Positions 16,741-43,348 of a stretch of 43,667 bases of DNA are shown piece after piece. The notes beneath the pieces are model-generated. The model did no database searches. It saw only the letters and a list, made by a program, of their open reading frames with translations, and was not told where the DNA came from. The position numbers and the translations under genes are program-made. Origin of the DNA: Acidobacteriota bacterium (GTDB taxonomy: Bacteria > Actinomycetota > Acidimicrobiia > Acidimicrobiales > Microtrichaceae); NCBI GenBank assembly GCA_003577145.1, contig QEUP01000027.1:1-43667 (forward strand), read 5' to 3'. Positions within the stretch are counted from its first letter, which is position 1, and the number at the start of each line of letters is the position of its first letter.

Positions 16741-16814
16741 GGGGCTGTAGCTCAGCTGGCTAGAGCACCTGCTTTGCAAGCAGGGGGTCGGGGGTTCGAG
16801 TCCCCCCAGCTCCA
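16741..16814 (+). tRNA. tRNA-Ala (anticodon TGC)
   Basis: A full cloverleaf can be drawn: acceptor stem GGGGCTG/CAGCTCC (one G-T pair), D-arm GCTC/GAGC, anticodon stem CCTGC/GCAGG with loop TTTGCAA (anticodon TGC), and T-arm GGGGG-TTCGAGT-CCCCC. The discriminator base is A14 of 16801-16814 and CCA is not encoded. The total is 74 nt. The foreign-looking region begins right after it, so its 3' end is a plausible integration site, although no second copy of the 3' end is seen in this window. Confidence 0.97.
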
Positions 16815-17151
16815 CTCGAAAACCGCAGGTCACAGCGTTGCCGGGACCGTCGCCCTAGCGGGGGGAGCGGCCGGCGTGACCTCCACGTGACCTAACGGCT
16901 CAGCAGCGATCGGCCCGGTCCAGAACGATCGCCCGCCGATCGGCACGCTCCGCGCGCGCTGGGCCGGCGTGTCGGCTGCCAACGCGACTGGCTCGCAGGC
17001 GACGAGTGCAGCGGCCGACTCGACACCGACCCGTAGCCGGCGTTCTGCGACGTCCGCCAGCGCGGCAGCGTGTTGCGACAAGACGCTGGAGCCCGCCCGG
17101 TGTCATCGTCGAGCTGAGGAAGCACGAGATCCGAACGGTTGCCTCATCTCG
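16815..17151. other. Non-coding stretch after tRNA-Ala
   Basis: These 337 bases hold no gene I can support. They contain GTGACCT twice, 4 nt apart (around 16876-16893), and inverted CGATCGG/CCGATCG words around 16910-16945. Open frames on both strands are Ala/Arg-rich, low in complexity and overlap each other, as expected by chance in GC-rich DNA. If the tRNA is the integration site, the left end of the element would lie here. Confidence 0.5.
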
Positions 17152-26691: not shown

Positions 26692-29600
26692 TTGGCAGTC
26701 GGAGTACAAGAGGAGACCGACATCGTCGTCCCCGAGCTGGGCCAAGTGGTCCGGTGCCGGGACCGGATCTGGGCGGTCAACGAAGTGGAGACGTCCACAC
26801 TCCCAGAGGACGCCGTAGCGGGCACCCGCCCCCACCATCTCGTCCGCATGTCGAGCCTCGAGGACGACGGCTTCGGCGACGAGCTGACAGCGATCTGGGA
26901 GATCGAGCCCGGCACCCAGGTCATCCCCCACCAGGAACTGCCGATGCCCAATCTCGACCGCCTCGATCCGCCCGAACGGCTCGACGCCTTCCTTGATGCC
27001 GTCCGCTGGGGGGCTGTCGCGACCGCAGACTCCAAGGCGCTCCAGGCTCCTTTCCGGTCGGGCATCACCATCGAGGACTACCAGCTCGACCCTGTCGTCC
27101 GGGCCCTCGGAATGCCGCGCGCCAACCTGCTGATCGCCGATGACGTCGGCCTTGGCAAGACCATCGAGGCCGGACTCGTCGTCCAAGAGCTGATCCTCCG
27201 ACACCGGGCCCGCACCGTCCTCGTCGTCGCGCCCGCCGGCCTCCAAGTCATGTGGCAGGAGGAGATGCGCGACAAGTTCGGACTGGACTTCCGCATCGTC
27301 AACACCGACTACGTCCGTCAGCTCCGTCGCGAGCGCGGCGTCGGCGCGAACGCCTTCACCTCGTTCCCTCGGCTCATCATCTCGATCGACTGGCTGAAAG
27401 ATCGCCGAGCCCAGTCGTTGCTCGACGAGGTGCTCTCCGGCGTCGACTACCGCCGCACACCCCGATCCTTCGACTTGCTCATCGTCGACGAAGTCCATTC
27501 GGCCGCTCCTTCCGGGCGGGGCAAGTACGCCGTCGATTCCCTTCGCACCAAGGCCATCCAGCGTCTGGCCCCACACTGCGAGCACCGCCTCTTCCTCTCG
27601 GCCACTCCGCACAACGGGTACAAGGAGAGCTTCACCGCACTCCTCGAACTGCTCGACCCCCAACGCTTCGCCCGCGGTGTCGAACCGAACCCTGAACAGC
27701 TCAGCCGAGTCCTCGTCCGCCGCCTCAAGCGCGAACTCCGAGAAGAACTGCCCCCGAACCCCGACGGCACCCCGAGATTCGCGGAGCGCAGGGTCGTCGC
27801 CATGCCTGTCGACTACCCCGAAGACGAGCGCCGCGCCCACGACCTCATCGAGCGCTACGCCGACTCCCGCCGCTCGCATCAGAAGAGGGGCTCGAAGCGG
27901 TCGGCCGCCGACTTCGTCACCCTTCTCCTCAAGAAGCGACTCCTCTCCAGCCCGACCGCCTTTGCCAACACGCTCGAGCAGCACCGCTCGACGATGGAGA
28001 AGCGCGATAGAGGTGACAAGGCAAGCGAGAACCAGATGCGCCTCGCCTGGGAGCGCAGTGACGACGACGCCGGCGACGACGAGACCGGAGAAGCCACCGC
28101 CGAAGCTCTCGCTACCGCAGCCCGCGGACGGGTCCCGCTCACCGACGAGGAACGCGCCATCCTCGACGAATTGGCCGGCTGGGTCGAGCAACGCCGGCAC
28201 CGCCCCGACGCCCGAGCCAAGGCGCTGCTCGACTGGCTCGCCGACACCTGCCGCACCGAGGACGGCGGGTGGACTGACGAGCGGGTCATCATCTTCACCG
28301 AGTATCGCGACACTCAGAAGTGGATCATCGACCTGCTCCTCACCAACGACTTTGGAGGCGACGGCGGCGACCGCATCGCCACCCTCTACGGCGGCATGGA
28401 CACAGACACCCGTGAGCGCACCAAGGCCGAGTTCCAGGCCCACCCGTCCCGCTCGCCGGTCCGAATCCTCGTCGCCACCGACGCCGCCTCTGAAGGCATC
28501 AGCCTCCAACGCCATTGTTGGCGGATGCTCCATTGGGAGATCCCGTGGAACCCGAGCCGCCTTGAGCAACGCAACGGGCGCGTAGACCGCCACGGCCAGC
28601 CGCAGCCCTACGTCGAGGTCCGCCACTTCGTCCCCGAAGGCTGGGAGGACGACCAGTCCGGCTTCGCCACCGAACTCGGCTTCCTATCCCTCGTCGCCCA
28701 CAAGGTCGAACAGATCCGAGACGACCTCGGTTCAGTCGGCGCCGTCCTCGCGGACCAGGTCGGCGACGCCATGCTCGGCCGGCGCACTCGCATCGACGAC
28801 GACGCCATCGACCAGGCCCGATCCAAGCCCGGCACGAAGGTGCTCCAGGTCGAACGCAAGCTCCGAGAAGGTCTCGCCCGCTGTCACGAACGCCTCCAGG
28901 AGTCGCTCGACGAACTCGGCCTCACCCCCGGGCGCGTCGGACGAGTCGTCACTACCGCCCTGGAGTTTGCTCACCAGCCCCGCCTCATCGAGACCGACGA
29001 ACCCGGCGAGTACCGTCTCCCCGCCCTCAGTGGCTCCTGGCAACGAACCTCTGAGGGGATGATCGACCGCCTCTCCGGCGACGAGCTCCCCTTCACCTTC
29101 GACCCTGACCTCGCCGCTGGCCGCGACGACATCGTCTACTGCCACCTCGGACACCGCCTGGTCTCTCAGTCCCTCCGGCTGCTGCGCGCCGAGGTGTGGG
29201 CCAGCGACCGAGGCAGCCTTGCTCGGGTCACCGCCCGCACCGTCCCCCCAATCGACGCCGTCCTCGAACCCCACGACCTCGGCGTCATCTGCCATGCCCG
29301 ACTGGTCATCACCGGCGCCGACGGCCACCGCCTTCACGAGGAGCTCGTCGTCGCCGGCGAGCGGCTCCGTAGCGGACGCTTCGCCCGCATCGACACACTC
29401 CGTGACCTCGACACCCTCCTCACCACTGCCACCGCCGCCCCCGACGCCAGAGTGCTCGAGCCCCTCAGCAAGTGGTGGGACGCCGTCGTCGAACCCGGGC
29501 TCTCCAAAGCCCTCGACCGCCGGAGCGAGACGGTCCAGGAGTCCAAGCAACGAGAACTCGCCGACCGGGCCGAAGCCGAAGCTGAGGCTGTGCGCACCGT

Positions 29601-29856
29601 CTTGACAGATCTCCGACACCAGATCACCGACGACCTCGATGCACTGACCCAGGAGCGCTCCGAGCAGCTCAGCCTCTTCAACGAACCCGAACGCGAGCAG
29701 TCTCAACGCGACCTCGACGCCCTGCGCAGACGGCTCGACGAGATCCCGGCGGAGATCGAACGCGAGGTCGACGCGGTCCACCGCCGATTCACCGACCCCG
29801 AGGTCCACATCTTCCCCGCCGCCGTGACGATCCTCGTCCCCGAAGAGAGTCACTGA
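26692..29856 (+). CDS. drmD: DISARM class 1 SNF2-like helicase DrmD
   Basis: DrmD is the SNF2-type ATPase that is specific to class 1 DISARM. The 1054-aa protein has a Walker A in DDVGLGKTIEAGL (about 149-161), DEVH at 265-268 (motif II), a SATPHNGYKESF motif III and the C-terminal helicase lobe with FTEYRDTQKW, ATDAASEGISLQ and the motif VI sequence QRNGRVDRHGQ (about 623-633). The final third is helical with a Glu-rich coiled coil. The start at TTG 26692 is forced by the open frame and lies 4 nt from a G-rich ribosome-binding site. Its stop overlaps the next start (TGATG). It may translocate on DNA to recruit or stimulate the other DISARM parts; that role is inferred. Confidence 0.9.
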   Translation: MAVGVQEETDIVVPELGQVVRCRDRIWAVNEVETSTLPEDAVAGTRPHHLVRMSSLEDDGFGDELTAIWEIEPGTQVIPHQELPMPNLDRLDPPERLDAFLDAVRWGAVATADSKALQAPFRSGITIEDYQLDPVVRALGMPRANLLIADDVGLGKTIEAGLVVQELILRHRARTVLVVAPAGLQVMWQEEMRDKFGLDFRIVNTDYVRQLRRERGVGANAFTSFPRLIISIDWLKDRRAQSLLDEVLSGVDYRRTPRSFDLLIVDEVHSAAPSGRGKYAVDSLRTKAIQRLAPHCEHRLFLSATPHNGYKESFTALLELLDPQRFARGVEPNPEQLSRVLVRRLKRELREELPPNPDGTPRFAERRVVAMPVDYPEDERRAHDLIERYADSRRSHQKRGSKRSAADFVTLLLKKRLLSSPTAFANTLEQHRSTMEKRDRGDKASENQMRLAWERSDDDAGDDETGEATAEALATAARGRVPLTDEERAILDELAGWVEQRRHRPDARAKALLDWLADTCRTEDGGWTDERVIIFTEYRDTQKWIIDLLLTNDFGGDGGDRIATLYGGMDTDTRERTKAEFQAHPSRSPVRILVATDAASEGISLQRHCWRMLHWEIPWNPSRLEQRNGRVDRHGQPQPYVEVRHFVPEGWEDDQSGFATELGFLSLVAHKVEQIRDDLGSVGAVLADQVGDAMLGRRTRIDDDAIDQARSKPGTKVLQVERKLREGLARCHERLQESLDELGLTPGRVGRVVTTALEFAHQPRLIETDEPGEYRLPALSGSWQRTSEGMIDRLSGDELPFTFDPDLAAGRDDIVYCHLGHRLVSQSLRLLRAEVWASDRGSLARVTARTVPPIDAVLEPHDLGVICHARLVITGADGHRLHEELVVAGERLRSGRFARIDTLRDLDTLLTTATAAPDARVLEPLSKWWDAVVEPGLSKALDRRSETVQESKQRELADRAEAEAEAVRTVLTDLRHQITDDLDALTQERSEQLSLFNEPEREQSQRDLDALRRRLDEIPAEIEREVDAVHRRFTDPEVHIFPAAVTILVPEESH

Positions 29857-32800
29857 TGGCCACGAAGCAACAGCATCGACTCAAGGCCAACCCCAGGGCC
29901 GCGCTCCAAGACTGGCTCACCCTCGTCGACCCCGACGGCGCCTTCCTCACCACCTCCGAGCTCAATGCCACATTCCTCCACGGCTTCGAGCAAATGGACC
30001 GCGACCTACGCACCGAGCTACGGGCCCGTGCCGCGGCCGCCACCGAAGCCGGCGACCCAACGAGCCGTCGCGAGCTGACGCGCTGGCTCCTCGACACCGC
30101 ACTCGAGTGGGACGACCTGTTGGCCGACGGTCAGCGCATCCCCGCGACGGCGACCGTGACGGCCGCCGACCAGGGCGTCACGCTCCGCCCCCACTACGTC
30201 CTCCTCGACGCCGACGACGCCACCAAGATCCGTCTCGGCGTGTTCACCTGGCCCAACGGCACCCCGATCGACCGTCGCCTCGACCCGACAGCCTCCGGCG
30301 GCACCTGGCCTGCCAGCCCCGTCCAACGAGCCGAGACGTGGTGCCGCGAATCCGGAACTCCGCTCGCCCTCGTCACCGACGACGACGCCTGGGCCCTCGT
30401 TTGGGCTCCACGCGGCGCGCCAGCCGCATCGTGTCGCTGGACCATCGCCGACCTCGCCGACGAGACGATTCTGCAAGCCGGACTCGTGTCGCTACTCGGC
30501 GCTCGACGATTCTTCGCCGTCTCCGATGATCCGAAGACCGGCGAGACCCTCGAGCGGCTCTTCGAACGCGCCGTCGACGCCGAAGCCGAGCTCACCAAGG
30601 GCCTCGGCTCCTCGGTCCGGGGATCGGTCGAGCTTCTTGTTGCCGCCACCTCCCGCGACGACGTCGCCCACAACGGCAAGGTGCTGGCCGGCGTTGCCGC
30701 CACCGAGGTCTACGAATCCGCGGTCACCGTCCTCATGAGATTGGTCTTCCTCCTCTTCGCCGAAGAACGACGACTCCTCCCCGCCGAGGACCCGCTCTGG
30801 AGCGAGTCGTACTCGGTGCTCACACTGCGCGACGACCTCCGCCAGGCCGCCACCCGCGATGGCCTTGACGCCCTCGAACGGCGCGCCACCGCCTGGCACC
30901 GACTCCTCGCCACCTTTAGGGCCGTTCACGGTGGCGTCAACCACGACCGCCTCACCCTGCCCGCCTACGGCGGCAGCCTCTTCGACCCCGACCGCTTCCC
31001 ATTTCTCGAGGGCCGTCGAGCCCCCGAACACATCGTCGCCGGCGGCGTCGACCTCGGCCCATCTCCCGACGCAGAGCCCGGACCGGGTCGTCCCGTCGCC
31101 ATCGACGATCGAACCGTCCTCGCAATCCTCGACGCGCTCCTCACGGTCCAAGTCAAGTCAGGCCGCACCAAGGTCGCCCAGCGCGTCTCGTACAAGGCGC
31201 TTGACGTCGAACAGATCGGCCACTGCTACGAGGGACTTCTCGACCACAGCTGCGTGCCCGTCGACGAGCTCGCCCTCGGGCTGGTGGGGCCCGAAGCCAA
31301 CGAACCCGAGATCACCGTCGCCGACCTCGAGCAATTCGGCGACGATCCAGCCGCCTTGTGCGAGTGGCTGTCCGACAAGACACGATGCAAGAAGAAGGCG
31401 AGCGCCCTGGCCAAGCTCGTCGACCAGGAACCCGAAGGCGTCGACCTCGCCCGCCTCCGCGTCGCCTGCGGCCACGACGACGACATCGTCGAACGTGTCC
31501 TGCCTTTCTGGGGCCTCATCCGCCCCGACCTTCGTGGCCTGCCTGTCGTGCTCCTCCCCGGGTCGATGTTCGTCACCCAGACCTCAACCCGCCGCAACAT
31601 GGGCGCCCAGTACACCACCAAGGCCCTCGCCGAAGAGGTCGTTCAGTACGCCCTCGAGCCGCTCGTCTACGACCCCGGTCCTCAGAACGAGCCTGACCAG
31701 GCCAGGTGGAAGCTCAAGACCCCGGCCGCCATCCTCGACCTGCGCGTCTGCGACCCCGCCGTCGGGTCTGGCGCCATCCTCACAGCAGCGGGCCGATTCC
31801 TCGCCGACAGGCTCATCGAGTCGGTTCTCGAGTACGGACCCGGCGAGGGACAGTTCGCATCGCGTCTCAACTACCTCACCACCGCTGCGACCGACGAACA
31901 GACCGTTCTCGCTCGACGAGAGGTCGTCGACCACTGCCTCTACGCCGTCGACAAGAACCCCGTCGCCGCCGAAATGGCAAAGCTCTCGCTCTGGCTCACG
32001 ACGATGGCCCGGGAGCGACCGTTCACGTTCCTGGACCACGCCATCCAGGTCGGCGACTCACTGCTCGGCATCACCGACATCGACCAGCTGCGGTGGCTCC
32101 ACCTTGATCCGTCGGAACGTTGGGGAAAGCGGGGGTTCGAGTCGCTGGCGCTTGACATGCGACTGAAGGAGGCGACCGAGCTAGCCCGGCGAGTGCGAGA
32201 GATGTCCGTTGTGACCGTACGGGACGCGGAGGAGAAGAGGCACCTGAACGACGAGCTTCAAGAGAAGCTCGCGGATCTCGCCGTGGTCGCGGATGCAGTA
32301 GCTGGGGCCGCCCTCAGCACCGCCACCAAGGGCGGCGTCTCGATGGAGCAGCGTCTCGATCCTGAGATGGACCGGATTCGCACCTCGCTCGACGAGAACG
32401 GTTCTGGACCCGAGCGCGAGGCGGCTCTGATGGCTCTGCGCGGTGTCTCGACGGGCTGGCTGCGAATCGACCTGCCGGACGACATCCCCACGCCTTGGGA
32501 TCGGCACTGTCTGCACTGGCCGCTCGCATTCCCAGAGGTGTTTCTCGACGGAGGGCCCGGCTGCTTCGACGCCATGGTTGCGAACCCTCCGTTCCTGGGC
32601 GGAAAGCGCGTGTCGGGCCAGTTGGGTAGCGCCTACCGGGGATTCTGCATGGAATGGCTCGCTGGGTCCCGTGGCAATGTAGATCTCGTTGCCTTCTTTC
32701 TTCAGCGGATGGGAAGTGTCAGCAGGGGTATCGGAACGATCGCAACCAACAGTGTCGCCCAAGGCGACACACGCGAGGCAGGCCTTTCCTCGTTGCTAGG

Positions 32801-34013
32801 TCGCGGGTGGGTCGTCCATCGTGCGGAGAGCAATTATCAATGGCCCGGTGACGCAGCGGTCGTCGTATCGCTCATTTGGCTACGACGAGACTGGGACGGG
32901 CAGAGCTACGTCAATGGCGTGGCGGCTTCTTCGATTGACAGCTCGCTCACTAGAACCTCCCGAGTTCTCGGTGATGCATACCCGCTTGCGTCACACGCTG
33001 GTAACTCCTACCAGGGCTCGATTCTCGTTGGTCGCGGCTTCGTACTCGATGAAGAGGAGGCAGCGCGACTGCTGCGGGGTGATCCAAGAAACTCTCAAGT
33101 CGTTCGTCGCTATCTTGGTGGAGCGGACCTCAATAAGCGGCCCGACCAGTCGGCGTCCCGTTGGGCCATCGACTTCTTCGAGCGGTCCGAGCAGGAGGCG
33201 CGGTCGTTTGCCGAATGCTGGAGGATCATTGAGGAGCGAGTGAAGCCTGAACGGCGGCGAAAGAAGGACGATGGCTCGTTCGCCCTCAGGTCACCGCAAC
33301 CAGAGCGGTATTGGCAATACGCCGACAAGAGGCCTGCCTTGTACCGCCTACTGGAACGGCGTGACACGACTGTCGCGATTGCCCAGGTGAGCAAGACACT
33401 CATGCCGGCCCGCATTGACGCAGACCAGGTACTCGACGCGAAGCTGATCGTGTTTCCGCTGGCGTCCTCCGGCGTATGGGGAGTCCTGAGCAGCTCGTTT
33501 CATCAGCTCTGGGTCATCCGCTGGACGACTACGTTGAAGACCGACCTCACGTATGTTCCCACACGAGTCTTCGACACGTATTCGTTCCCAGCAGACTCGC
33601 TGCTAGGAGGGGTCTCGGAATCGATCGAGCACCTTGATGAGTTTCGAAGCAACCTCATGGCGAGCTACAACGAGGGGCTCACAAAGACCTACAACCGGGT
33701 ACACGATCGGGAGGAGTCCGATCCCGCGATTGAGTCGTTGCGCAAGCTCCATGTTGAGCTGGATGTCTCGGTTCGCGATGCCTACGGCTGGTCTGACATC
33801 GATCTCGACCATCACCACTCGGAGACTCCCCAGGGGATGCGGTTCACTCTCAGTCCGGAGTCCAAGGATGAGATCCTCGATCGACTGCTCGAGCTGAACC
33901 ACGAGCGGTACGCCGAGGAGGTCGCCGCCGGCCTGCACGACAAGAAGGCCAAGAAGTCGACGAAGAAGCGCGCCTCGAAGAAGGCGAGCGAGGACCAAGG
34001 GAAGCTGCTGTGA
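29856..34013 (+). CDS. drmMI: DISARM adenine-specific DNA methylase DrmMI
   Basis: This 1385-aa protein is a large gamma-type N6-adenine methylase related to PglX and Eco57I-like enzymes, which marks host DNA as self. Motif I DPAVGSGAIL starts at D633 and the catalytic motif IV NPPF is at 910-913, followed by LGGKRVSG. The target-recognition region lies between about residues 920 and 1300, and the C-terminus is Lys-rich. From about 32090 to 33890 the codons end far more often in A, T or G than in the first half of the gene, where almost every codon ends in C; the switch begins just ahead of motif IV and spans the recognition region. This suggests that a recombined specificity module was acquired. 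It overlaps drmD by 1 nt and drmA by 4 nt. Confidence 0.92.
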   Translation: MATKQQHRLKANPRAALQDWLTLVDPDGAFLTTSELNATFLHGFEQMDRDLRTELRARAAAATEAGDPTSRRELTRWLLDTALEWDDLLADGQRIPATATVTAADQGVTLRPHYVLLDADDATKIRLGVFTWPNGTPIDRRLDPTASGGTWPASPVQRAETWCRESGTPLALVTDDDAWALVWAPRGAPAASCRWTIADLADETILQAGLVSLLGARRFFAVSDDPKTGETLERLFERAVDAEAELTKGLGSSVRGSVELLVAATSRDDVAHNGKVLAGVAATEVYESAVTVLMRLVFLLFAEERRLLPAEDPLWSESYSVLTLRDDLRQAATRDGLDALERRATAWHRLLATFRAVHGGVNHDRLTLPAYGGSLFDPDRFPFLEGRRAPEHIVAGGVDLGPSPDAEPGPGRPVAIDDRTVLAILDALLTVQVKSGRTKVAQRVSYKALDVEQIGHCYEGLLDHSCVPVDELALGLVGPEANEPEITVADLEQFGDDPAALCEWLSDKTRCKKKASALAKLVDQEPEGVDLARLRVACGHDDDIVERVLPFWGLIRPDLRGLPVVLLPGSMFVTQTSTRRNMGAQYTTKALAEEVVQYALEPLVYDPGPQNEPDQARWKLKTPAAILDLRVCDPAVGSGAILTAAGRFLADRLIESVLEYGPGEGQFASRLNYLTTAATDEQTVLARREVVDHCLYAVDKNPVAAEMAKLSLWLTTMARERPFTFLDHAIQVGDSLLGITDIDQLRWLHLDPSERWGKRGFESLALDMRLKEATELARRVREMSVVTVRDAEEKRHLNDELQEKLADLAVVADAVAGAALSTATKGGVSMEQRLDPEMDRIRTSLDENGSGPEREAALMALRGVSTGWLRIDLPDDIPTPWDRHCLHWPLAFPEVFLDGGPGCFDAMVANPPFLGGKRVSGQLGSAYRGFCMEWLAGSRGNVDLVAFFLQRMGSVSRGIGTIATNSVAQGDTREAGLSSLLGRGWVVHRAESNYQWPGDAAVVVSLIWLRRDWDGQSYVNGVAASSIDSSLTRTSRVLGDAYPLASHAGNSYQGSILVGRGFVLDEEEAARLLRGDPRNSQVVRRYLGGADLNKRPDQSASRWAIDFFERSEQEARSFAECWRIIEERVKPERRRKKDDGSFALRSPQPERYWQYADKRPALYRLLERRDTTVAIAQVSKTLMPARIDADQVLDAKLIVFPLASSGVWGVLSSSFHQLWVIRWTTTLKTDLTYVPTRVFDTYSFPADSLLGGVSESIEHLDEFRSNLMASYNEGLTKTYNRVHDREESDPAIESLRKLHVELDVSVRDAYGWSDIDLDHHHSETPQGMRFTLSPESKDEILDRLLELNHERYAEEVAAGLHDKKAKKSTKKRASKKASEDQGKLL

Positions 34014-37000
34014 GTGACACGCCGACACCGGTGCGGATCCGGGACGAGCTCGAGAAGCTCATCGTCACCGACCTGCTCGGGCCATCCGACCCTCACGAGC
34101 AGCTCCCCGGGGTCCGCAGTCCGGTGCGAGAGTGGTACCTCGTTGGGCTCTTAGCGCCGAAGGGGACGGTCGTCGATCCAAGCCGGGGAGATGGCGACGA
34201 CCTCCAGGAGGGCGACGAGGGCGGTGCGCCGGGGCCTGACGATCGCCCGGCGAAGGTCGTGCTCTTCCCATCGTCGGCAGGGTTCTCAGCAGCGGTCGAC
34301 CTGTCGTGCGAAGCGCTCGAGGTTTCGGCTTCGTGGGGACGGTACGAGAAGATCGACAACGAAGACCCGAATGCCGAGCGGGCCTACGAGAAGCTGTGGC
34401 AACGTCACCCGGCCGGCGGTTCGCAGACCATCACCCTCGCCGACGAGGACATCGGACCGGTCGTCCCCGACCCTGAACAGCCCGAGGTCGTCATCCGAGG
34501 TCGATGCCGGAAGACGGCGAGCTGCTGGCTGGTCACCCTCTTCCTCGTCAATGAGCAGCTCCCGACTGACCGCAACATCGACGAGCGCTGGCTGTTCCAG
34601 ATCGAGCTGTCGGCCGCTGCACCCAACGGCTCACCGGCGTTCGTCGGTCGAAAGCTGGCGCTGCCCGACCAGGTCAGCGACAGTGACGACGAGGTAAAGC
34701 ACCTGGACCTGCTGTATCGGCACACCGTCGAGTTCGCCGTCGGGCACGGCGTCGCTGTCCACGCCGAGGTCGCCGACGGCAACCCTCACCGAGCCACATC
34801 GGTCCGCACGTCAGTGCTGCCCCGATCAGAGGTCGCCAAGGTCGAGGCACCCGAGCCAGACGACCCCACCCTCGACAACGAACAGCGCCACCCGTTCGAG
34901 CGGGAGCAACTCGCCTCGGTCGTCTTCGACATGGAGAAGCTCGCCAGCCTCGACGGCCCCGGCGCCGTCGCCGCATTGACGCCGCTGGCCGACTCCTACG
35001 ACCACTGGCTCGAGCGGCAGAAGGCCCGAATCGACGGCTTTGAGAGCGAGGATGGCGGGGTCGCTGCAGCGGCCGTTGCACGCGCGCAGGGGATAGCCCG
35101 CCGCCTTCGTGTCGGGATCGAGCTGCTCGGGACCGACACCGTCGCCGCCGAGGCGTTCGCCTTCGCCAACCACACGATGTGGCAGCAGCGGCTCCACACG
35201 CTCGTCGGCTTCGCCCGGCGGGACAACCCGAAGCTCAGCCTGGCTGACGCCGAGGCGCAGGTCTCAGCTGAGCCGAGCTGGTCGTGGCGGCCGTTCCAGC
35301 TTGCCTTCGTGCTCGTGAACCTTCCGTCGTTGAACGACCCGACCCACGACGAACGCCAGCTCGACACCGGCACCGTTGATCTCCTGTTCTTCCCGACCGG
35401 TGGCGGCAAGACCGAGGCCTACCTCGGGCTCACCGCGTTCACGCTCGCGATCCGCCGCCTCCAGGGCGAGATCGAAGGCCACTCGGGAGAGGGCGGAGTT
35501 GGCGTACTCATGCGCTACACGCTCCGCCTGCTGACCTCGCAGCAATTCCAGCGCGCCGCCACCCTCATCTGCGCCTGTGAGGTCCGACGGCAAGAGCTGA
35601 TCGCGGCTGGCGACGAACGATGGGGCGAGACGCCGTTCCGTATCGGCATGTGGGTAGGCGGCTCGGTCAGTGCCAACAAGACCCAGGACGCCGCCCGCGA
35701 CCTCGACGACCTCCGCAACACTGGCTGGGCCAAGGGGGCCGGCCCCACTGCACTTGTTGCCTGCCCATGGTGCGGCGAGGAGCTCGATCCCCAGCGCGAT
35801 GCCACCTCACACCCGCACCTGTGGCGCACCCTCATCACCTGCGGTGACTCGAAGGGCCGCTGCCCGTTCACCGCCCGCCGCTCGGATGGTGAAGGCATCC
35901 CGGTAGTCAGCGTCGACGAGGAGATCCACCGGCTGCTACCCGACCTGGTTATCGCGACGGCCGACAAGTTCGCTCAGCTTCCGTGGCAGGGGCAGACCAG
36001 CAGCCTGTTCGGTCGCGTCTACCGGCGCTGTTCCCGCCATGGCTTCCGCACACCGGACCTCGACTCCTACGGCGGCCATACCGAGGCAGACAAGCACAAC
36101 AAGGCTGGCGACCTCCCCGCCGCCACATCCACCGACTGCCTGCGTCGACGTCCACCCGACCTCGTCATCCAGGACGAGCTCCACCTCATCGCCGGACCAC
36201 TCGGCTCACTCTTCGGCCTGTACGAGACCGCCATCGACGAGCTCGCCTCGTGGACGGTGGACGGTAAACCGGCGCGGCCGAAGATCGTCGCGTCAACCGC
36301 CACCATCCGCCGGGCCGAGCACCAGGCCTACAACCTGTTCTGCCGGCGCCTCGCCGTGTTCCCACCTCAGGTCATCGACGCCGGCGACTCGTTCTTCGCT
36401 GTCGAACGCCCCACCGAGTCCGTGCCCGGGCGCCTCTACATCGGCGTGTGCGGAATGGGTCAGCGGTTCAAGTCGGTCGAGACCCGCGTCTTCACCACCG
36501 TGCTCGCCGCTGCCCAGGTGCTCTACGAGAAGTACGGCGCGGCCGCCGACCCATGGATGACCACCGTCGGGTACTTCAACGCCCTCCGCGAGCTCGGTGG
36601 CATGCGCCGGATGCTCGACGATGACGTCACCAACCGGCTTCGCCGAACCGACCGTCGCGGCCTCACCAATCGCTGGCTGAACGACACCCGAGAGCTGACC
36701 TCGCGGATCAGCTCAAGCGACATCCCCGCAACCCTTGACGACCTCGGCCGACGCTTCACTGGTCAGAAGCCCGAGAAGGGCGAGTGGCCCATCGACGTGT
36801 TGCTCGCCACGAACATGATCTCCGTCGGCGTCGACGTCCCTCGTCTCGGGCTCATGGTCTGCGCCGGCCAGCCCAAGACCACGGCCGAGTACATCCAGGC
36901 AACGTCTCGAGTCGGCCGCGACGAGCGAGGCCCTGGCCTCGTCGTGACCCTCTACAACTGGGCGCGGCCCCGCGACCTGTCGCACTACGAGACCTTCGAG

Positions 37001-37573
37001 CACTACCACCAGACCTACTACCGCCAGGTCGAAGCCCTATCGGTCACCCCGTTTGCCCGTCGCGCCCTCGACCGTGGGCTAACCGCGCTGCTCGTGTCCG
37101 AGGCTCGGCACAGCCGCAAGGAATGGAACCCGAGGGCGGCGGCACAGTTCGTGCCGGTGAACACGGCTGAGTTCGACCCGATCGCTGCTGCCCTGCGCAG
37201 CCGCGCCGAGCTGATCTCAATGCCGGCGTCCGACGTGGTGAACGCGATGGTCGCCACCCGGCGAGATAAGTGGTCCAAGCAACAGCAGGCGCCTGGTGTC
37301 ACGCTCACCTATGCGCGAGGCCGGGGCGACGCGATCGACCTCCTTCAGGCCCCCGAGTCCGGCCCGTGGACCGACTTCACTGCGCCGAACTCCCTGCGCG
37401 AGGTCGAGACCGGCTCCAACCTGCTGCTCCGGGAGGACGACCCGTCCGACGACCCGACCGCCGGGTTTCCCGACCCGCCAGTCGGCGAGGATGACGACGA
37501 GGGGGTCGCCGTCGCCGCCGAGGACGCCGATGCCGAGGACGCCGACGTCGTGGTCGAGGAGAGCGACGGATGA
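34010..37573 (+). CDS. drmA: DISARM helicase DrmA
   Basis: DrmA is the core SF2-type helicase found in all DISARM systems and forms a complex with DrmB. The 1187-aa protein has Walker A FPTGGGKTEAY (P462-T463-G464-G-G-K467), motif II QDELH at 721-725 followed by LIAGPLGSLFGLYETAID, and the helicase lobe with LATNMISVGVDVPRLGLMV and the QATSRVGRDERG motif VI. The N-terminal 400 residues are not recognised. A Cys-containing segment (CPWCGEELDP and CGDSKGRCPF, near 583-625) may bind zinc. The C-terminus is strongly acidic (about 1155-1187). GTG 34010 overlaps the previous stop by 4 nt. The overlap with drmB is also 4 nt. Confidence 0.93.
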   Translation: MSDTPTPVRIRDELEKLIVTDLLGPSDPHEQLPGVRSPVREWYLVGLLAPKGTVVDPSRGDGDDLQEGDEGGAPGPDDRPAKVVLFPSSAGFSAAVDLSCEALEVSASWGRYEKIDNEDPNAERAYEKLWQRHPAGGSQTITLADEDIGPVVPDPEQPEVVIRGRCRKTASCWLVTLFLVNEQLPTDRNIDERWLFQIELSAAAPNGSPAFVGRKLALPDQVSDSDDEVKHLDLLYRHTVEFAVGHGVAVHAEVADGNPHRATSVRTSVLPRSEVAKVEAPEPDDPTLDNEQRHPFEREQLASVVFDMEKLASLDGPGAVAALTPLADSYDHWLERQKARIDGFESEDGGVAAAAVARAQGIARRLRVGIELLGTDTVAAEAFAFANHTMWQQRLHTLVGFARRDNPKLSLADAEAQVSAEPSWSWRPFQLAFVLVNLPSLNDPTHDERQLDTGTVDLLFFPTGGGKTEAYLGLTAFTLAIRRLQGEIEGHSGEGGVGVLMRYTLRLLTSQQFQRAATLICACEVRRQELIAAGDERWGETPFRIGMWVGGSVSANKTQDAARDLDDLRNTGWAKGAGPTALVACPWCGEELDPQRDATSHPHLWRTLITCGDSKGRCPFTARRSDGEGIPVVSVDEEIHRLLPDLVIATADKFAQLPWQGQTSSLFGRVYRRCSRHGFRTPDLDSYGGHTEADKHNKAGDLPAATSTDCLRRRPPDLVIQDELHLIAGPLGSLFGLYETAIDELASWTVDGKPARPKIVASTATIRRAEHQAYNLFCRRLAVFPPQVIDAGDSFFAVERPTESVPGRLYIGVCGMGQRFKSVETRVFTTVLAAAQVLYEKYGAAADPWMTTVGYFNALRELGGMRRMLDDDVTNRLRRTDRRGLTNRWLNDTRELTSRISSSDIPATLDDLGRRFTGQKPEKGEWPIDVLLATNMISVGVDVPRLGLMVCAGQPKTTAEYIQATSRVGRDERGPGLVVTLYNWARPRDLSHYETFEHYHQTYYRQVEALSVTPFARRALDRGLTALLVSEARHSRKEWNPRAAAQFVPVNTAEFDPIAAALRSRAELISMPASDVVNAMVATRRDKWSKQQQAPGVTLTYARGRGDAIDLLQAPESGPWTDFTAPNSLREVETGSNLLLREDDPSDDPTAGFPDPPVGEDDDEGVAVAAEDADAEDADVVVEESDG

Positions 37574-39402
37574 GCAAGCCCTACGACGGCCCGATCCGAG
37601 TCGGGAACATCCGGCCCAGCCAGGCCATCCACTCCTACGGCGTAGGCTCCCTGGTCGACCTCCCGAACCTGAGCGTCATCGTCGGCGGCCTCGACCGCTG
37701 GGACACGACTCGCCAGGAGGTCGTCACCGAGGAGCGGTTGCTCAGCGCCGTACGGACGCGGCTCGGCGATCAGGTGGAAGCACTACGGGCTCTGCCCTCC
37801 GAACCGGAGACATCGAATCCGTTCGACGACTGGGCCCGCGTCGGCCTTCCCGTCACGGTCTTCCCTCGATGGCTGCGGTGCACCGCGTGCAACCGGCTGT
37901 TTCCCATCGCCTCCGGCGCCCTCAAGCTCGAGTCGAACGCCTACCGGCCAGACCGGACCCGCTACGTCCACCCCAACTGCGACCGCGCCCGCAAGCCGCC
38001 GCCTGCGGTGCCTGCTCGCTTCGTCGCCGGCTGCGCCAACGGCCACCTCGACGACTTCCCGTGGGTGCGATTTGCCCACGACGGTGTACCCATATGCGCC
38101 AACCCGATTCTGCGGGTCAATGACATCGGCTCCGGCGGTCGCGCCACAGACCTGCTTGTCGCCTGCCTTACCTGCGACGCCAAGTCCACACTGGCCAAGG
38201 CGTTCGGGCCAGCCGCAAAGCAGACCATGCCCGGGTGCCGTGGTCGCCACCCACACCTCGGGCAGGCGACCGAGCCATGCGGCGAGCAGCTCCGGTCGCT
38301 GGTGCTCGGCGCGTCGAACCTGTGGTTCAGCTCGAGCCTGTCGGTGCTCTCGCTGCCCGTCGGTGGCGGGTCACTCAACCAGCTCGTCCACGACCATTGG
38401 TCTGCACTCGAGAAGATGACGGTCAAGGACGTGCTGACCTACGCGCTGACGACCGACAGCACGCTCCAAGCCGCCTTCGCCGGTCATGACCCCGACGACA
38501 TCTGGGACGCCATCGAGGCCAAGCGCGGCGGCGCAGGTGACACCCCCGAAGCCGACGTGCACGGTCCCGAGTGGAGCGCGCTGACCACGGGATCACAGGG
38601 CCAGAACTCACCGCATTTCGAGGCCGAGCCGATTGAAGCACCAGCGGACTTCGCCGGACGGCTTGCTGGCGTCACGCTGGCGCATCGCCTTCGCGTTGCC
38701 ACCGCTTTGTGCGGGTTCACACGAATCAGTACTGGAGAGCCAGATGACCTGAGCAAGGTCGTGCGGCTCGATGCGAGCGGGGCGCCCACCTGGGTGCCGG
38801 TAGTAGAGAACCGTGGCGAAGGGATCTTCCTCCAGCTCGACGAAGCGGCGGTCCAGGAATGGGAGGCAGCCGCCTACGACAATCCACTGTTCGTCGCCAT
38901 GCGGCGCGCCCACCGGGAGTGGCGAGAGGCTCGAGGACTCGACCCGCATGTGGGTTGGCCAGGGGAACGCTTCGTGCTGTTGCATTCGCTCTCCCACTCA
39001 CTCATCAACGAGCTGGCCATCGAATGCGGCTACTCCTCGGCTTCGATCAGTGAGCGGATCTACAGCCGGAGACCCGGCGAGGGCCCCGAGCCAATGGCAG
39101 GCATCCTCCTCTACACCTCCGCACCCGACGCCGAGGGCACGCTCGGTGGGCTAGTAAGCCTGGGCAAGCCCGCCGAACTTGGCCCGCTGCTCACACGAGC
39201 GATCGAGAAGGCTGGCCTCTGCTCGAGTGACCCGCTCTGCGCCGAGCACGAGCCCGACCCGCTGGACGGCTCGCTCCACGGCGCCGCCTGCCACGCCTGC
39301 TTGCTGGTGGCGGAGACAAGCTGCGAACAGGGCAACCGCTACCTCGATCGTTCGACGTTGGTCGACACATTTGCTCACACCGGTCTGGAGTTCCTCGGGT
39401 GA
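37570..39402 (+). CDS. drmB: DISARM DUF1998 protein DrmB
   Basis: DrmB carries the DUF1998 domain and works with DrmA in the core DISARM complex. In this 610-aa protein the N-terminal part has CTAC (C104, C107) and CANGHLDDFPW, and the C-terminal part has SDPLCAEHEPD, HGAACHACLLVAETSCEQGNRYLDR, with several Cys residues likely binding zinc. The HSLSHSLINELAIECGYSS segment near residue 475 is typical of DUF1998 proteins. ATG 37570 overlaps the drmA stop by 4 nt, and its own stop overlaps the drmC GTG by 4 nt. Confidence 0.93.
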   Translation: MSKPYDGPIRVGNIRPSQAIHSYGVGSLVDLPNLSVIVGGLDRWDTTRQEVVTEERLLSAVRTRLGDQVEALRALPSEPETSNPFDDWARVGLPVTVFPRWLRCTACNRLFPIASGALKLESNAYRPDRTRYVHPNCDRARKPPPAVPARFVAGCANGHLDDFPWVRFAHDGVPICANPILRVNDIGSGGRATDLLVACLTCDAKSTLAKAFGPAAKQTMPGCRGRHPHLGQATEPCGEQLRSLVLGASNLWFSSSLSVLSLPVGGGSLNQLVHDHWSALEKMTVKDVLTYALTTDSTLQAAFAGHDPDDIWDAIEAKRGGAGDTPEADVHGPEWSALTTGSQGQNSPHFEAEPIEAPADFAGRLAGVTLAHRLRVATALCGFTRISTGEPDDLSKVVRLDASGAPTWVPVVENRGEGIFLQLDEAAVQEWEAAAYDNPLFVAMRRAHREWREARGLDPHVGWPGERFVLLHSLSHSLINELAIECGYSSASISERIYSRRPGEGPEPMAGILLYTSAPDAEGTLGGLVSLGKPAELGPLLTRAIEKAGLCSSDPLCAEHEPDPLDGSLHGAACHACLLVAETSCEQGNRYLDRSTLVDTFAHTGLEFLG

Positions 39403-40148
39403 CCACGTTGGCCGAACTCACGGCCGACGTGGCGCGTCGGCTGGCGCCGGTTCATCTGGCCTCGGTGGCTGCCGCGTACCGGAAGGAGCCGGCCTACTCG
39501 AAGGAAGGAGCGGCCACTGTCACCCGAGCGCTACCCGGCCCTCACAAGGAGGTGCTTGCCGAACTGCACGCGGCATGGGCGGCCCAACCCGAGACGCCCG
39601 GCGTCGCACTGGCGATCGGCCTCGAAAGCGCGGCAACGACGGAGGCAGCGTCCGATCGGACGGCCGTCGAGGTCGTCGTCACCGGTCCCAACTCTCCGGT
39701 CGCACCAGTCCGTCTCACGTCCGAAGTCGTCCGGCGCCTCATCGACGATGCCAAACATCGGGTCATGCTCGTGAGCTACGCCGCCTACCAGGTCGACTCC
39801 GTCATCAAGGCGCTCGACCGTGCGGTAGACGAGCGAGGGGTGACCGTGCAGCTCATCCTCGAGTCCTCCGAGAACCTCGACGGCGGAGGCGGCGCCCACG
39901 CGTACGCCAAGTACGTCGTCTACGAGTGGCCGCCAGCAGACCGCGTTCCACATGAGGCGAAGCTCCACGCGAAGGCGGTCATCGTCGACGGTCGCGACGT
40001 ACTCCTGACGAGCGCCAACATGACCAACGCCGCCTACAGCAAGAACATCGAGCTCGGCGTGCTGTGCCGGGGCGGCAACACGGCCCGGCACGTGCAGGAG
40101 CACTTCGACGGCCTCATCAGCACAGGCGTCCTTCAGGCGGTCCCATGA
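39399..40148 (+). CDS. drmC: DISARM phospholipase D-like protein DrmC
   Basis: DrmC is the phospholipase D-superfamily member of DISARM, possibly a nuclease. This 249-aa protein has one HKD-type motif: H190-A-K192 in KLHAKAVIVDGRDVLLTSAN, followed by MTNAAYSKNIELGVL. Only one HxK copy is present, so activity would need a dimer. The N-terminal 100 residues are helical. GTG 39399 overlaps the drmB stop. The next gene starts 2 nt after the stop (40149 is a single base gap), so it is probably co-translated. Confidence 0.9.
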   Translation: MTTLAELTADVARRLAPVHLASVAAAYRKEPAYSKEGAATVTRALPGPHKEVLAELHAAWAAQPETPGVALAIGLESAATTEAASDRTAVEVVVTGPNSPVAPVRLTSEVVRRLIDDAKHRVMLVSYAAYQVDSVIKALDRAVDERGVTVQLILESSENLDGGGGAHAYAKYVVYEWPPADRVPHEAKLHAKAVIVDGRDVLLTSANMTNAAYSKNIELGVLCRGGNTARHVQEHFDGLISTGVLQAVP

Positions 40149-40149
40149 T

Positions 40150-41445
40150 GTGCGGCTCGAAGGCGGTCACCAGGGAGGGTCTCCGCTCAGCGTTCCCTCT
40201 GGACCGAGCGCTGTGAACGCAGACGATCTAGCGGAACTCACCCGCCGGGATCTCGAGCCGCTACTTGCCGCGACAGCAACGATCGACGCGCCAACCGTCA
40301 ATCGGCGAGTCGCCGGTGGCCGGCAGGCCCCAGGAAACACGATGTGGATATCCGTGCCGGGTGGGTTGGAGGTGACCCTGACCCGGTCGCTCCCCCTGAG
40401 CACGTGGGAGGCCGGGATACTCCGACCATACGGCAACGCTCTCAGGGATCTGCACGGCATCCCGGACGCCGTGGCACGGAATGCGGCCGACGAGGTCGTC
40501 CTGCGCGCCATCGCAGTTCAGCTCGGCGACATGCAGGCCGCGATCGTCGAGGCTGCCATCCGATTCCTGCTCCGCGCCGCCGTCTCGACGTACGAAGGCC
40601 AACCCATTCATCTGAACGTCTTGGTGGACCTGGCTCTGCCACCCGCCCCCGGAGTCATTGCCGACCTGGCGGAACTCCAGCGGCACGACTGGTACGCGTT
40701 GCTCGGAAGCGGTCTTGAGACCGGGGTGCTCGTAAACGGGGCCGGGGAGGTCGTGAGGCTCGTCGACGTCGGATCGTTCGAGCTCCAAGCGGGAGAGTCG
40801 CCCGATCGCCTCTTGTCCCACGCGTTCCGTCCCATCGGGGAGTGGACCCGCCAGAGCGGCACTCGACTGGCGCTCTCAATCACGCGGGGACGTGAACTGC
40901 TCGTCCATCAGGGCGGTGAGTTGCGATACGTGTACAGGTCCGGTCGATGGCGCGGTCTTCCACTCGACGTGGCGGTCAGAAAGGGCTGGAGCGCAGGAGC
41001 GGGCATCGGCCGGCCCGTCAAGCGTGCAGTGCTAGCGAGCCTGATCGACGGTTCCCTTGGCCATCACGGCGCCTGCCTCGGAATCGTCGTCCGAGGGCAG
41101 AAGACCGGCTTCATGGGCTCCGCCGTCCTGCAGCAGAGCGATCTCTGGCCCGACAACGTACGTGCCGGCCTGTTCGGGTCAGACCGGTTTCAGCTGCTCT
41201 CTCGTCGCCAGCGCCTGGAGTTGCTCTCGATGGATGGTGCAACAGTCCTCGATCACACCGGCAGGATTCTGGCGGCTGGAGCCATCGTGGCGGTACCCGG
41301 AGGAAGCTCAGGCGGCGGACGCCTTGCGGCGACCCGCGCTCTCGCCGCCTTTGGGGCAGCATTCAAGGTCTCCCAGGATGGGCCGATTGCCCTCTTTGGC
41401 CGAGACTCCGAGGGGAACGTCGAACTCAAGATGGCGCTGGCCTGA
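40150..41445 (+). CDS. DisA/DAC-like nucleotide-binding protein in DISARM operon
   Basis: This 431-aa protein is not a known DISARM component. The C-terminal part (about 285-425) reads like a DAC (DisA_N) domain: KRAVLASLIDGSLGHHGACL, then D362-G363-A364 in LSMDGATVL, an AGAIVAVPGG strand, and R396 in GGGRLAATRALAAFG, 34 residues after the DGA, which is the DisA/CdaA spacing. The DAC RHR motif has become R-A-L, so diadenylate synthesis is doubtful. Afterwards come FKVSQDGPIALF and the SEGNVEL strand, matching the SEEG-type segment. The N-terminal half (about 20-280) is unrecognised, with a LALSITRGRELL and RSGRWRGLP part. The overall design resembles the DAC-like sensor proteins (DACNV-type) reported in conflict systems. 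GTG 40150 follows drmC by 1 nt, with AGGCGG upstream; GTG 40213 is an alternative start. Confidence 0.7.
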   Translation: MRLEGGHQGGSPLSVPSGPSAVNADDLAELTRRDLEPLLAATATIDAPTVNRRVAGGRQAPGNTMWISVPGGLEVTLTRSLPLSTWEAGILRPYGNALRDLHGIPDAVARNAADEVVLRAIAVQLGDMQAAIVEAAIRFLLRAAVSTYEGQPIHLNVLVDLALPPAPGVIADLAELQRHDWYALLGSGLETGVLVNGAGEVVRLVDVGSFELQAGESPDRLLSHAFRPIGEWTRQSGTRLALSITRGRELLVHQGGELRYVYRSGRWRGLPLDVAVRKGWSAGAGIGRPVKRAVLASLIDGSLGHHGACLGIVVRGQKTGFMGSAVLQQSDLWPDNVRAGLFGSDRFQLLSRRQRLELLSMDGATVLDHTGRILAAGAIVAVPGGSSGGGRLAATRALAAFGAAFKVSQDGPIALFGRDSEGNVELKMALA

Positions 41446-41484
41446 AAGCCCGGCAGAGGATCGAACCGGTCTCGCGGGTGTCGG

Positions 41485-42288
41485 TCAGGCAAGGGCGGTC
41501 GCCAGATCGGCCCATAGGACCTGCAACGACTGGCGCACGACGTCGGTGTCAGTGAGACCCCGAACAGCGCCCTCCGCGAGACCGAGGCCAGCGCCGCCTG
41601 GGCCGAAGAGGGCGTCGCCAAGCCCGATTGCCTCCTCGGTCACCGGGCCGGCGAGGTCGTTCCTGCGCAGTCGATCGACCCCGGCGACGAGGTCGTTCGT
41701 CGGGATCGCCTGGAGGAGCCGCAGCACGTCGAGTGCGTCCTTCTTGACGAGCCGATCGGGCTGGTCAACCCGTTCGGCGATCTTGTGGACCTTCGCGACG
41801 AGCAGCGCGGCGGGCCCGGCGACTCGCACACGGAACGACCGGCTGTCGTCCGGGTCGAGCGCGCCGAGCTCCCGCTCCGTGTTGTCCACAAGCACGCCTT
41901 CGATCCCCTTCGCCCGCCGTGCGGCGCGCTTGCCGTGACCGGGAAGCCGAGCGCCACGTCGGCCGGGCCCAGCCACCGCCTCGGGTACGAGCAGGTCGAC
42001 CTGGATGCCGTCGCTCGTCCGCCACTTGCCCGGGTCCTCCTGGAGCTCGAAGCCCCGGCCCTCCAGCAGGGTCTGGATGCTCGGCTCGTCGGCGAGGAAC
42101 TCCGGAGCGATTGCGACGTCGGCATCGGTGGTGAACTCGGCCACCGGCAGATCGGCTGGCCCGGTGTGAACGTACACCGCCTGGGCCCCGACGACCACGA
42201 TCGAGTCCAGATGTGGCGTCAACGCCTCAAGCCCATCGAGGAGCGCTCTGCGGGCGAGGACGTACAGCGGGTCAGGATCGCCAGGCAT
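41485..42288 (-). CDS. AbiEii-like nucleotidyltransferase toxin candidate
   Basis: This is a 267-aa protein with a nucleotidyltransferase core of the AbiEii/AbiGii type: VVVGAQAVYVHTG (about 31-43), T54-D55-A-D57 (FTTDADVAI), and the third Asp D98 in GIQVDLLVPEA. The later segment KVHKIAERVDQPDRLVKKD gives the conserved basic and acidic residues of that family. Such toxins transfer nucleotides to tRNA and halt growth. It overlaps the upstream regulator gene by 17 nt on the minus strand and ends 39 nt from the DAC-like gene, towards which it is transcribed. Confidence 0.8.
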   Translation of the reverse strand: MPGDPDPLYVLARRALLDGLEALTPHLDSIVVVGAQAVYVHTGPADLPVAEFTTDADVAIAPEFLADEPSIQTLLEGRGFELQEDPGKWRTSDGIQVDLLVPEAVAGPGRRGARLPGHGKRAARRAKGIEGVLVDNTERELGALDPDDSRSFRVRVAGPAALLVAKVHKIAERVDQPDRLVKKDALDVLRLLQAIPTNDLVAGVDRLRRNDLAGPVTEEAIGLGDALFGPGGAGLGLAEGAVRGLTDTDVVRQSLQVLWADLATALA

Positions 42289-43348
42289 CGGTGTTCTCCT
42301 CCATCCAGTCGAGCAGCTCCTCGCCCTCGGCCGGCGCTCGGCCAGGCCCCGTCAGTAGGTCCACCGCGAGCTGGGCCGGGTTGACGAGCTGAAGTCCCTC
42401 GCGCTCGATCGTGCGGGTGAAGACAACGTCGTCGAAGGGCCGAAGGAGCATGACGTTGGCGCCGGATTCGGTCTCACGAAGGTCGAGCCCGAGAACAGCC
42501 GCTCGCACGTTCGAGACGTAGAGCATCGCCAGACGGGCGGGAGCGAACGGTGCGAGCGCGTTCGCCGCCAACGACCCGGTGAGGGCGTAGTCGAGATCGG
42601 TCTCGGTGAGGCGTTCGGCCAGGGCTGGCAACCCACGTGGCTGGAGGTAGCCGACGGCGTCGTTCGAGCGGAGCACGTCGTAGTCCTGGGCCCACCGCCT
42701 GACCGCCGCCGCCCAGTCGACGGTCAACACCGCACCCCGCTCGTCCCGCTCGACGATGCCATCCCGTTCGAGCAAATCGATCACGCGTGACAGCGTCGCT
42801 GCCGAGGCTTTCGTCCGACCGGCGAGCTCTCGGACGCCATACGGCGGCGCGAAGTCGATCAAGGCACGGACAGCTCGAGCTGCACCCGAGCCGCGGAGGC
42901 TCTGCAGGCTCTTGTCAACCGGCCAGGGGTTCTTCGTCGCCCCTTGAGCGGTGATGAGCAGCGCCGGCTCGTCGCTGACGAGCCGGACAGTCCCAGTCGC
43001 ATCGACGTAGGACACGCCCTCGCTCGTGAGACGCTCCTGCGATCGGGGGCTGAGCCACGGCACAACGAGCAGGGGGCGGCTGTCCGGTGTTGCCTCGGTT
43101 ATCGAGCGAAGTTGGGCGAGCGCGTCTGTGAGCTGCGCTCCGGACGCCTCACGCTTCACCTCGCCGAGGAACGTCACCGAAACTCCACTTGGACACGCCA
43201 CCCGCAGAGCGAGATCTCCTCGCAGCCCGGCTCCGAGAGGAACGTCTCGGTCGAGGTCCAGCCGCCAACTCGACGGCAACAGAGCGCGGAGAACCTGCTC
43301 GACATCGTCGAGGATCTGGGCTTGGCTCGGGGGTCCGGTTCTCAGCAC
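42272..43348 (-). CDS. AbiEi-like regulator with PD-(D/E)XK-like domain
   Basis: This is a 358-aa protein that is probably the antitoxin and repressor of the pair. The N-terminal 130 residues look like a PD-(D/E)XK fold: D45 in RGDLAL, E63-V-K65 in LGEVKRE, then a helix and a VVPWLSPRSQERL strand-turn. Residues 168-212 form a winged helix-turn-helix (GVRELAGRTKASAATLSRVI, then LERDGIVERDERGAVLTV). The C-terminal 130 residues include an AbiEi-like segment (DYALTGSLAANAL, TETESGANVML, VNPAQLAVDLLT). GTG 43348 is the only start, as TGA lies just upstream in frame. The nuclease-like domain may bind DNA without cutting; this is inferred. Confidence 0.75.
   Translation of the reverse strand: MLRTGPPSQAQILDDVEQVLRALLPSSWRLDLDRDVPLGAGLRGDLALRVACPSGVSVTFLGEVKREASGAQLTDALAQLRSITEATPDSRPLLVVPWLSPRSQERLTSEGVSYVDATGTVRLVSDEPALLITAQGATKNPWPVDKSLQSLRGSGAARAVRALIDFAPPYGVRELAGRTKASAATLSRVIDLLERDGIVERDERGAVLTVDWAAAVRRWAQDYDVLRSNDAVGYLQPRGLPALAERLTETDLDYALTGSLAANALAPFAPARLAMLYVSNVRAAVLGLDLRETESGANVMLLRPFDDVVFTRTIEREGLQLVNPAQLAVDLLTGPGRAPAEGEELLDWMEENTDAWRS

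Follow-up and report, generated by a model that had tools for sequence, protein, structure and literature searches.

A DAC-like protein encoded directly behind a class 1 DISARM operon belongs to a rare family that recurrently adjoins defense systems

A gene that directly follows a class 1 DISARM operon on the same strand codes for a protein of 431 aa that is predicted, from its modeled structure, to be a tandem of two DAC-like domains with the degenerate one first. It was found in the window, which here means the whole stretch of DNA analyzed (43,667 nt). The family to which this protein belongs is sparse across genomes and recurrently adjoins defense systems in distinct lineages. We read the family as a rare, movable nucleotide-sensing or signaling accessory of defense loci, which in the window has joined DISARM. 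For the window protein itself, we give a probability of about 0.5 to the reading that it is a nucleotide-binding signaling accessory from a rare, defense-associated tandem-DAC family and that it passes an infection signal to DISARM.

Class 1 DISARM is defined by drmD, drmMI, drmA, drmB, and drmC in one run. All five genes were identified in the window with PADLOC and NCBIfam, in one operon-like run on the forward strand. The run begins with drmD, which codes for a SNF2-like helicase (26692..29856; NCBIfam NF038317 DISARM_DrmD, 1261 bits with a cut-off of 610; PADLOC DrmD), followed by drmMI, which codes for an adenine methyltransferase (29856..34013; PADLOC DrmMI, 1444 bits; Pfam MmeI_TRD, Eco57I, and MmeI_Mtase), the helicase gene drmA (34010..37573; PADLOC DrmA, E 3e-296), drmB with its MZB domain (37570..39402; PADLOC DrmB, E 8e-76; Pfam MZB), and drmC, which codes for a PLD-type nuclease (39399..40148; NCBIfam NF038319, 192.5 bits with a cut-off of 133; PADLOC DrmC, E 1e-53). 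The junctions among the five genes are overlaps of 1, 4, 4, and 4 nt, in agreement with the 1–4 nt given in the original prediction. A gene for a MobF/TraA-like relaxase-helicase lies 5' of the operon (23821–26265, forward strand; the matches listed score under their thresholds), and the region could therefore be a mobile one. A tRNA-Ala (TGC) gene at 16741–16815 on the forward strand is a possible integration site. On the far side of the DAC-like gene, an AbiE-like nucleotidyltransferase/regulator pair (41485..43348, reverse strand; NTP_transf_8 E 1e-4 and AbiEi_2 E 0.0015, both under cut-offs) converges on it, 39 nt from its stop. This pair is a neighbor of the DAC-like gene and is not claimed for the unit; AbiEi and AbiEii genes also share a stretch with a family member at another locus (L054).

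The DAC-like gene occupies 40150..41445 on the forward strand as an ORF with a GTG start at 40150. If this longest ORF is taken, the gene begins one base past the drmC stop on the same strand, as had been described. Compared with class 1 DISARM as defined, the window therefore has one additional gene, the sixth, on the same strand and of DAC type. An in-frame GTG at 40213 (residue 22) is an alternative start and may be the true one, since many homologs begin at about this position in a 30-row alignment and since residues 1–20 have mean pLDDT values of 46 and 53 per ten-residue block in the predicted structure. With a start at 40213, the gap between drmC and the DAC-like gene is 64 nt and the strand is still the same. 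A consensus scan of 39900–42500 identified no sigma-70-type promoter and no terminator, a result that says little for this genome. Scans of Pfam, PADLOC, NCBIfam, and PHROGs gave no match to the window protein at E ≤ 1, and the sequences of the PDB gave none at E ≤ 10.

An AlphaFold2 model of the window protein was built from the 30-row alignment and has a mean pLDDT of 86.3 and a pTM of 0.85. When the whole model was compared to the PDB with Foldseek, the first 47 of the best 50 matches were diadenylate cyclases, and the best of them was CdaA (E 6.1e-5). The C-terminal DAC domain spans residues 284–431 (40999..41442, forward strand) and was delineated by Foldseek and VIA-align on the model. 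Its best 40 VIA-align rows have Z values of 11.4–13.9 and include 39 entries named as DAC, DisA, or CdaA, aligned over residues of about 280–431; the next other fold follows at Z 7.3. Also among the best 40 rows is structure 2fb5, which is titled as a hypothetical membrane protein, matches residues 61–431, and which we take to be a DAC. When a profile of this domain was compared by hhalign with a profile of three DisA sequences, the two aligned at E 1.5e-4 with a probability of 51%, against E 0.28 for the reversed control; the DisA profile was made from three of four PF02457 loci, with L121 left out. The DAC assignment of the C-terminal half, which had been made by eye, now has the predicted fold and the DisA profile comparison behind it; structure prediction, a check named at that time, gives the domain a DAC fold in an AlphaFold2 model with a pLDDT of 86.

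A middle pseudo-DAC domain precedes it at residues 112–286 (40483..41007, forward strand), as identified with VIA-align and Foldseek, and reached a pLDDT of 86.9 when modeled alone. Its best 40 VIA-align rows (Z 7.1–9.8) are 39 entries named as DAC, DisA, or CdaA plus 2fb5, with the next other fold at Z 3.0. Foldseek matched the middle domain to five DAC structures with E values of 2.4e-3 to 2.7e-2, none below 0.001. Helices and strands follow a similar order in the middle and C-terminal domains of the AlphaFold2 model. The two domains gave no significant match to each other in hhalign (best E 0.036, probability 1.4), and the tandem reading is therefore carried by the predicted structure. The model also has an N-terminal alpha/beta domain at residues of about 20–108 (40207..40473, forward strand). 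The VIA-align matches of this domain to phytochrome or GAF regions were too weak (Z up to 7.3) for a fold to be assigned.

Conservation was counted across 55 aligned family rows, and all motif coordinates given here are on the forward strand. YEG (residues 148–150, 40591..40599) is present in 55/55 rows, as are W267, D300, S302, G307, R355, and E357. DGA had been predicted at residues 362–364 (41233..41241) and is found there in all 55 family members, which is partly an effect of selection because most of these members were retrieved with a pattern that included DGA. The late SQDG-type segment of the original prediction was likewise recovered at residues 408–411 (41371..41382) and is conserved, with S408 and D410 in 54/55 rows and the remaining row cut short. 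The position proposed for the conserved arginine had to be corrected: it is R391 (54/55 rows) and not R396, whose column in the 30-row alignment is not a conserved one. R391 is the last residue of a GGR (residues 389–391, 41314..41322) that stands in the place of RHR in 54/55 rows, the remaining row again being cut short, and RHR itself occurs in 0/55 aligned rows. In the DisA profile alignment, R391 pairs with the first arginine of RHR; by spacing to the late serine, it pairs with the second. DGA and RHR act in DAC catalysis. The replacement of RHR by GGR across the family makes canonical c-di-AMP synthesis doubtful as judged from these sequences, and with RHR lost, neither ATP binding nor c-di-AMP synthesis is to be assumed.

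The window protein thus shares with DisA and CdaA a predicted DAC fold, DGA, and a serine in the late strand, and it differs from them in having neither RHR nor a match to PF02457. Unlike DisA and CdaA, it is predicted to have two DAC-like domains per chain, and its DAC domain is at the C-terminal end rather than at the N-terminal end as in DisA. Among 13 homologs scanned with Pfam PF02457 (DAC), matches were found at E ≤ 0.001 in L007, L118, and the distant L009 and L012, and at E ≤ 0.005 in L057 and L065. The matches of these relatives have scores of 17.5–24.7 bits, all below the gathering score of 27 bits, and the remaining 7/13 homologs had none.

DAC proteins in defense are already known from DS-2, a system composed of a phospholipase, a cGAS-like protein, and a DAC (PMC13092281). 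According to the accessible part of that source, the DAC is needed for this CBASS-like system, mutating two of its predicted catalytic residues abolished defense, 15 of 30 DAC homologs adjoin CBASS, and Galperin 2023 is cited for the link between CBASS and DAC (PMC13092281). We found a DS-2 locus in E. coli (L119), where the third protein is NF053872 (DS2_3_antiphage) and has DACNG, DACNH, and a DAC-like end. Like the window protein, it is a multi-domain protein whose DAC-like part has DG and a degraded RHR, and it sits with a CD-NTase and a patatin phospholipase, as does one family member (L057). The DS-2 protein is longer (581 aa versus 431 aa), is matched by Pfam DACNG and DACNH where the window protein is not, and had no hmmsearch match to the profile of the DAC-like family. 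The DAC parts of DS-2 and of the family align at an hhalign E value of 0.018 only. NF053872 matched five of six family members at E 0.0025–0.14, far below its 630-bit cut-off, and did not match the window protein. These comparisons indicate that the DS-2 DAC belongs to another family than the window protein. The DACNV-type label of the original prediction drew no support from the Pfam scan, in which the window protein had no match at E ≤ 1, and the DACN-type domains encountered here, DACNG and DACNH, are those of the DS-2 protein. In the open-licence literature, no paper was found for the name DACNV, and its four sister names returned only an unrelated title.

These results bear on the possibility that the window protein is an active cyclase, in which case infection would trigger synthesis of c-di-AMP or of some other nucleotide, cyclic or linear, as a second messenger operating alongside DISARM. 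The predicted DAC fold, the DGA, and the one arginine that is kept are consistent with activity, and the DS-2 DAC also lacks RHR, yet its predicted catalytic residues are needed for defense, as stated in the accessible part of PMC13092281. None of the six alphaproteobacterial genomes with a family member that were scanned had a PF02457 match at E ≤ 0.001 (some of them are MAGs and maybe incomplete), so a messenger made there would be a dedicated one. The near-universal GGR argues against this explanation, as does the lack of a cyclic-nucleotide effector in the DISARM and type I R-M operons. In addition, a canonical DisA with RHR is present in the window's own genome, and c-di-AMP itself would therefore be no specific signal there. 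We consider an active cyclase unlikely.

The family was searched for in genomes, plasmids, and viruses. A scan of genome contigs produced 98 pattern matches, from which 53 loci were confirmed. In tblastn searches of plasmids, the window protein identified two records and the A. vitis protein three, itself included. A tblastn search of 50,697 phage records with the window protein gave no match at E 0.1, and none of 15 pattern matches in viral contigs was confirmed. With the center genome counted in each case, the family occurs in 2/385 genomes of the class of L066, in 9/247 genomes of the window's class, and, with an earlier profile, in 7/396 genomes of the window's phylum; several actinobacterial matches in these counts span the C-terminal part only.

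A phylogenetic tree was constructed using 55 of 60 rows, after L021, L068, L089, and L105 were dropped as distant or cut short and L020 was dropped because it lies on the same contig as L060. The tree splits 17 rows, including the window, from the other 38 with branch support of 97/88; the midpoint root was used for drawing only. The window protein forms a pair with its nearest row, L053 (37% identity, support 100/100), and the placement of this pair inside the 17 rows has support of 83/15. L053 comes from an Acidimicrobiia genome that falls in the window's class, which makes an Acidimicrobiia origin of the window very likely. The tree program issued warnings for long branches and for the unusual composition of the window row. 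A distant actinobacterial subfamily (L009, L010, L011, L012, and L021) has a similar C-terminal DAC-like domain in chromosomal-looking settings.

Defense genes lie within about 2 kb of the family gene at 12 of the 17 loci in the window's branch (a raw count), and at 10 of the 17 no gene lies between. The defense-adjacent loci come from Pseudomonadota, Actinomycetota, Verrucomicrobiota, and Candidatus Fermentibacterota. The systems involved are CBASS (five loci), type I R-M (three loci), an EcoRII R-M system, a UG9 reverse transcriptase, PglX-like methylases, and DISARM. R-M, CBASS, DRT, and Zorya neighbors were called by family scans, and the effector at L067 and the rest of the operon at L007 were assigned by clustering or from the record annotation. 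L118, L065, L007, and L057 form a group of four that combines R-M and CBASS (support 95/59). For R-M, the labels require three changes, a number as low in 500/500 shuffles, and are not clustered; for CBASS, they require two changes, as low in 27/500 shuffles.

Three of these neighborhoods place the family gene among the genes of type I R-M systems. At L065, it overlaps hsdS by 4 nt and hsdR follows 15 nt on. At L118, hsdM and hsdS are upstream, an unassigned stretch of about 1 kb separates hsdS from the DAC-like gene, and hsdR is 16 nt downstream. The HsdR proteins of these two loci are 79% identical. At L054, the family gene lies between two hsdM-type genes, 30 nt past the first and 4 nt ahead of the second, which is followed by AbiEi/AbiEii, hsdS, and hsdR, with zorABCD farther upstream. 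A HsdM-type methylase with an extra N-terminal region of about 280 residues (L054:7646-9985) adjoins zorABCD and another hsdM. HsdR relatives of L065 at E ≤ 1e-100 occur in 5/289 genomes; G609 is one of the two genomes with a family match in the class of L066, the other four are not, and the DAC-like gene therefore looks optional there. The family resembles type I R-M and CBASS loci with accessory genes in that it is found between hsdS and hsdR or beside CD-NTase, E1-E2, and effector genes, and its optional presence is a difference from them.

The remaining systems are arranged differently around the family gene. The CBASS system is on the other strand at L057 (CD-NTase and patatin), at L066 (CD-NTase, E1-E2, and JAB), and at L007, which is on an A. 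vitis plasmid; at L070 (2TM effector, CD-NTase, and E1-E2) and L067 (CD-NTase and E2), it is the adjacent effector that is on the other strand. In Candidatus Fermentibacterota, a UG9 reverse transcriptase and its PolA-type partner (RTasPolA; L058:11240-14516) converge on the family gene from 45 nt away. The gene is separated by one gene from an EcoRII endonuclease and C5 methylase at L056, and by an integrase from PglXI/type II methylases at L053. At L007, L057, L066, and L058, where the system is oppositely oriented, and at L067 and L070, where the adjacent effector is, the family gene is thus not simply part of the neighboring operon.

Such arrangements would suit a stand-alone defense or toxin-like gene with its own trigger, for which the place after drmC is a coincidence of island growth. 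The opposite orientation of the system at L007, L057, L066, and L058 is consistent with this explanation, as are the integrase that directly adjoins at L053, the IS elements that flank L008, the possible 64-nt gap to drmC, and the single DISARM case in the searched set. It is at odds with the flanking of the DAC-like gene by hsdS and hsdR at both L065 and L118, with its position 4 nt before hsdM at L054, and with the same-strand, near-abutting position in the window. On balance, we find a stand-alone gene possible and somewhat improbable, and we retain the reading of a signaling accessory.

Five of the 17 rows in the window's branch have no counted defense neighbor (L008, L055, L060, L079, and L084); at L055, a HicA-like toxin gene is nearby and was left out of the defense count. 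For the other 38 rows, examined by eye and by clustering, no defense system was noticed among the matches listed. One of them, L071, adjoins a PD-(D/E)XK nuclease gene that looks AddB-like by eye and was left uncounted. In MAGs of Clostridia type, at least 24 family loci have an ftsY-like neighbor and at least 23 have an smc-like one, as assessed by eye. At least 25 loci among L069–L103 have an uncharacterized gene (about 240 aa) immediately 5' of the family member, and this chromosomal setting is conserved. The housekeeping-like context at 24 or more loci indicates that the fold family is not confined to defense. It also raises the prospect that the window protein is a housekeeping nucleotide protein without a defense role that sits behind drmC by chance, to which the chromosomal appearance of the distant actinobacterial relatives would add. 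The defense genes of six kinds at 12/17 loci of the protein's own branch and the sparse distribution (2/385 and 9/247 genomes) speak against a housekeeping role, and we regard it as very unlikely.

The association with DISARM was found in one place. The original prediction had proposed a six-gene variant of DISARM and had named a survey of drmC neighborhoods as a check. A tblastn search with five Drm proteins (E 1e-4), covering up to 10 kb of flank on each side, detected no Drm homolog at 53/53 family loci. Conversely, DrmC at E ≤ 1e-20 occurs at ten places in 396 genomes of the phylum, the window included, and the DAC-like family is absent from the flanks (about 1.5 kb) of the other nine drmC-like loci, not each of which is a verified full DISARM. 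A conserved six-gene variant is therefore not borne out, and the six-gene DISARM is a single case. The same two results rule out, as a general claim, that the family is a DISARM-specific partner. Searches of the open-licence literature, mostly by title, returned nothing on a DAC protein encoded in operons of DISARM or of type I R-M and, among the titles listed, none tying DISARM to diadenylate cyclase or c-di-AMP, although this does not prove that no such work exists. The text of PMC12458937, which concerns DISARM relatives, contains neither cyclase nor nucleotide-binding as a word.

If the window protein is a signaling accessory, it could act as follows. The DAC-like gene would be co-transcribed with the drm operon. 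The two DAC domains would pair, either within one chain or between chains, and together might hold an adenine nucleotide or dinucleotide. Infection would alter the ligand state of this pair, and the change would be relayed to the neighboring defense system, which is DISARM here. We infer both this coupling and the ligand of the window protein. In a broader version of the same idea, tandem-DAC proteins would be a general, interchangeable nucleotide-signaling module that serves CBASS and DISARM as well as restriction systems of types I and II and a reverse-transcriptase system; we put this forward tentatively and hold it to be rather doubtful. The motif set of the family (YEG, W267, DxS, DGA, GGR, and SxD) offers direct targets for mutants.

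The family extends the result for DS-2, a system reported to depend on another DAC for its defense activity (PMC13092281). If operons of DNA-targeting systems include a DAC-fold partner, restriction would be gated or backed up by nucleotide sensing or by a second messenger, and CBASS-type signaling would be linked to R-M. DISARM and type I restriction are regarded as autonomous DNA-targeting systems. If the broader version given above is true, nucleotide-messenger control would reach DNA-cutting systems that have been thought to be messenger-free.
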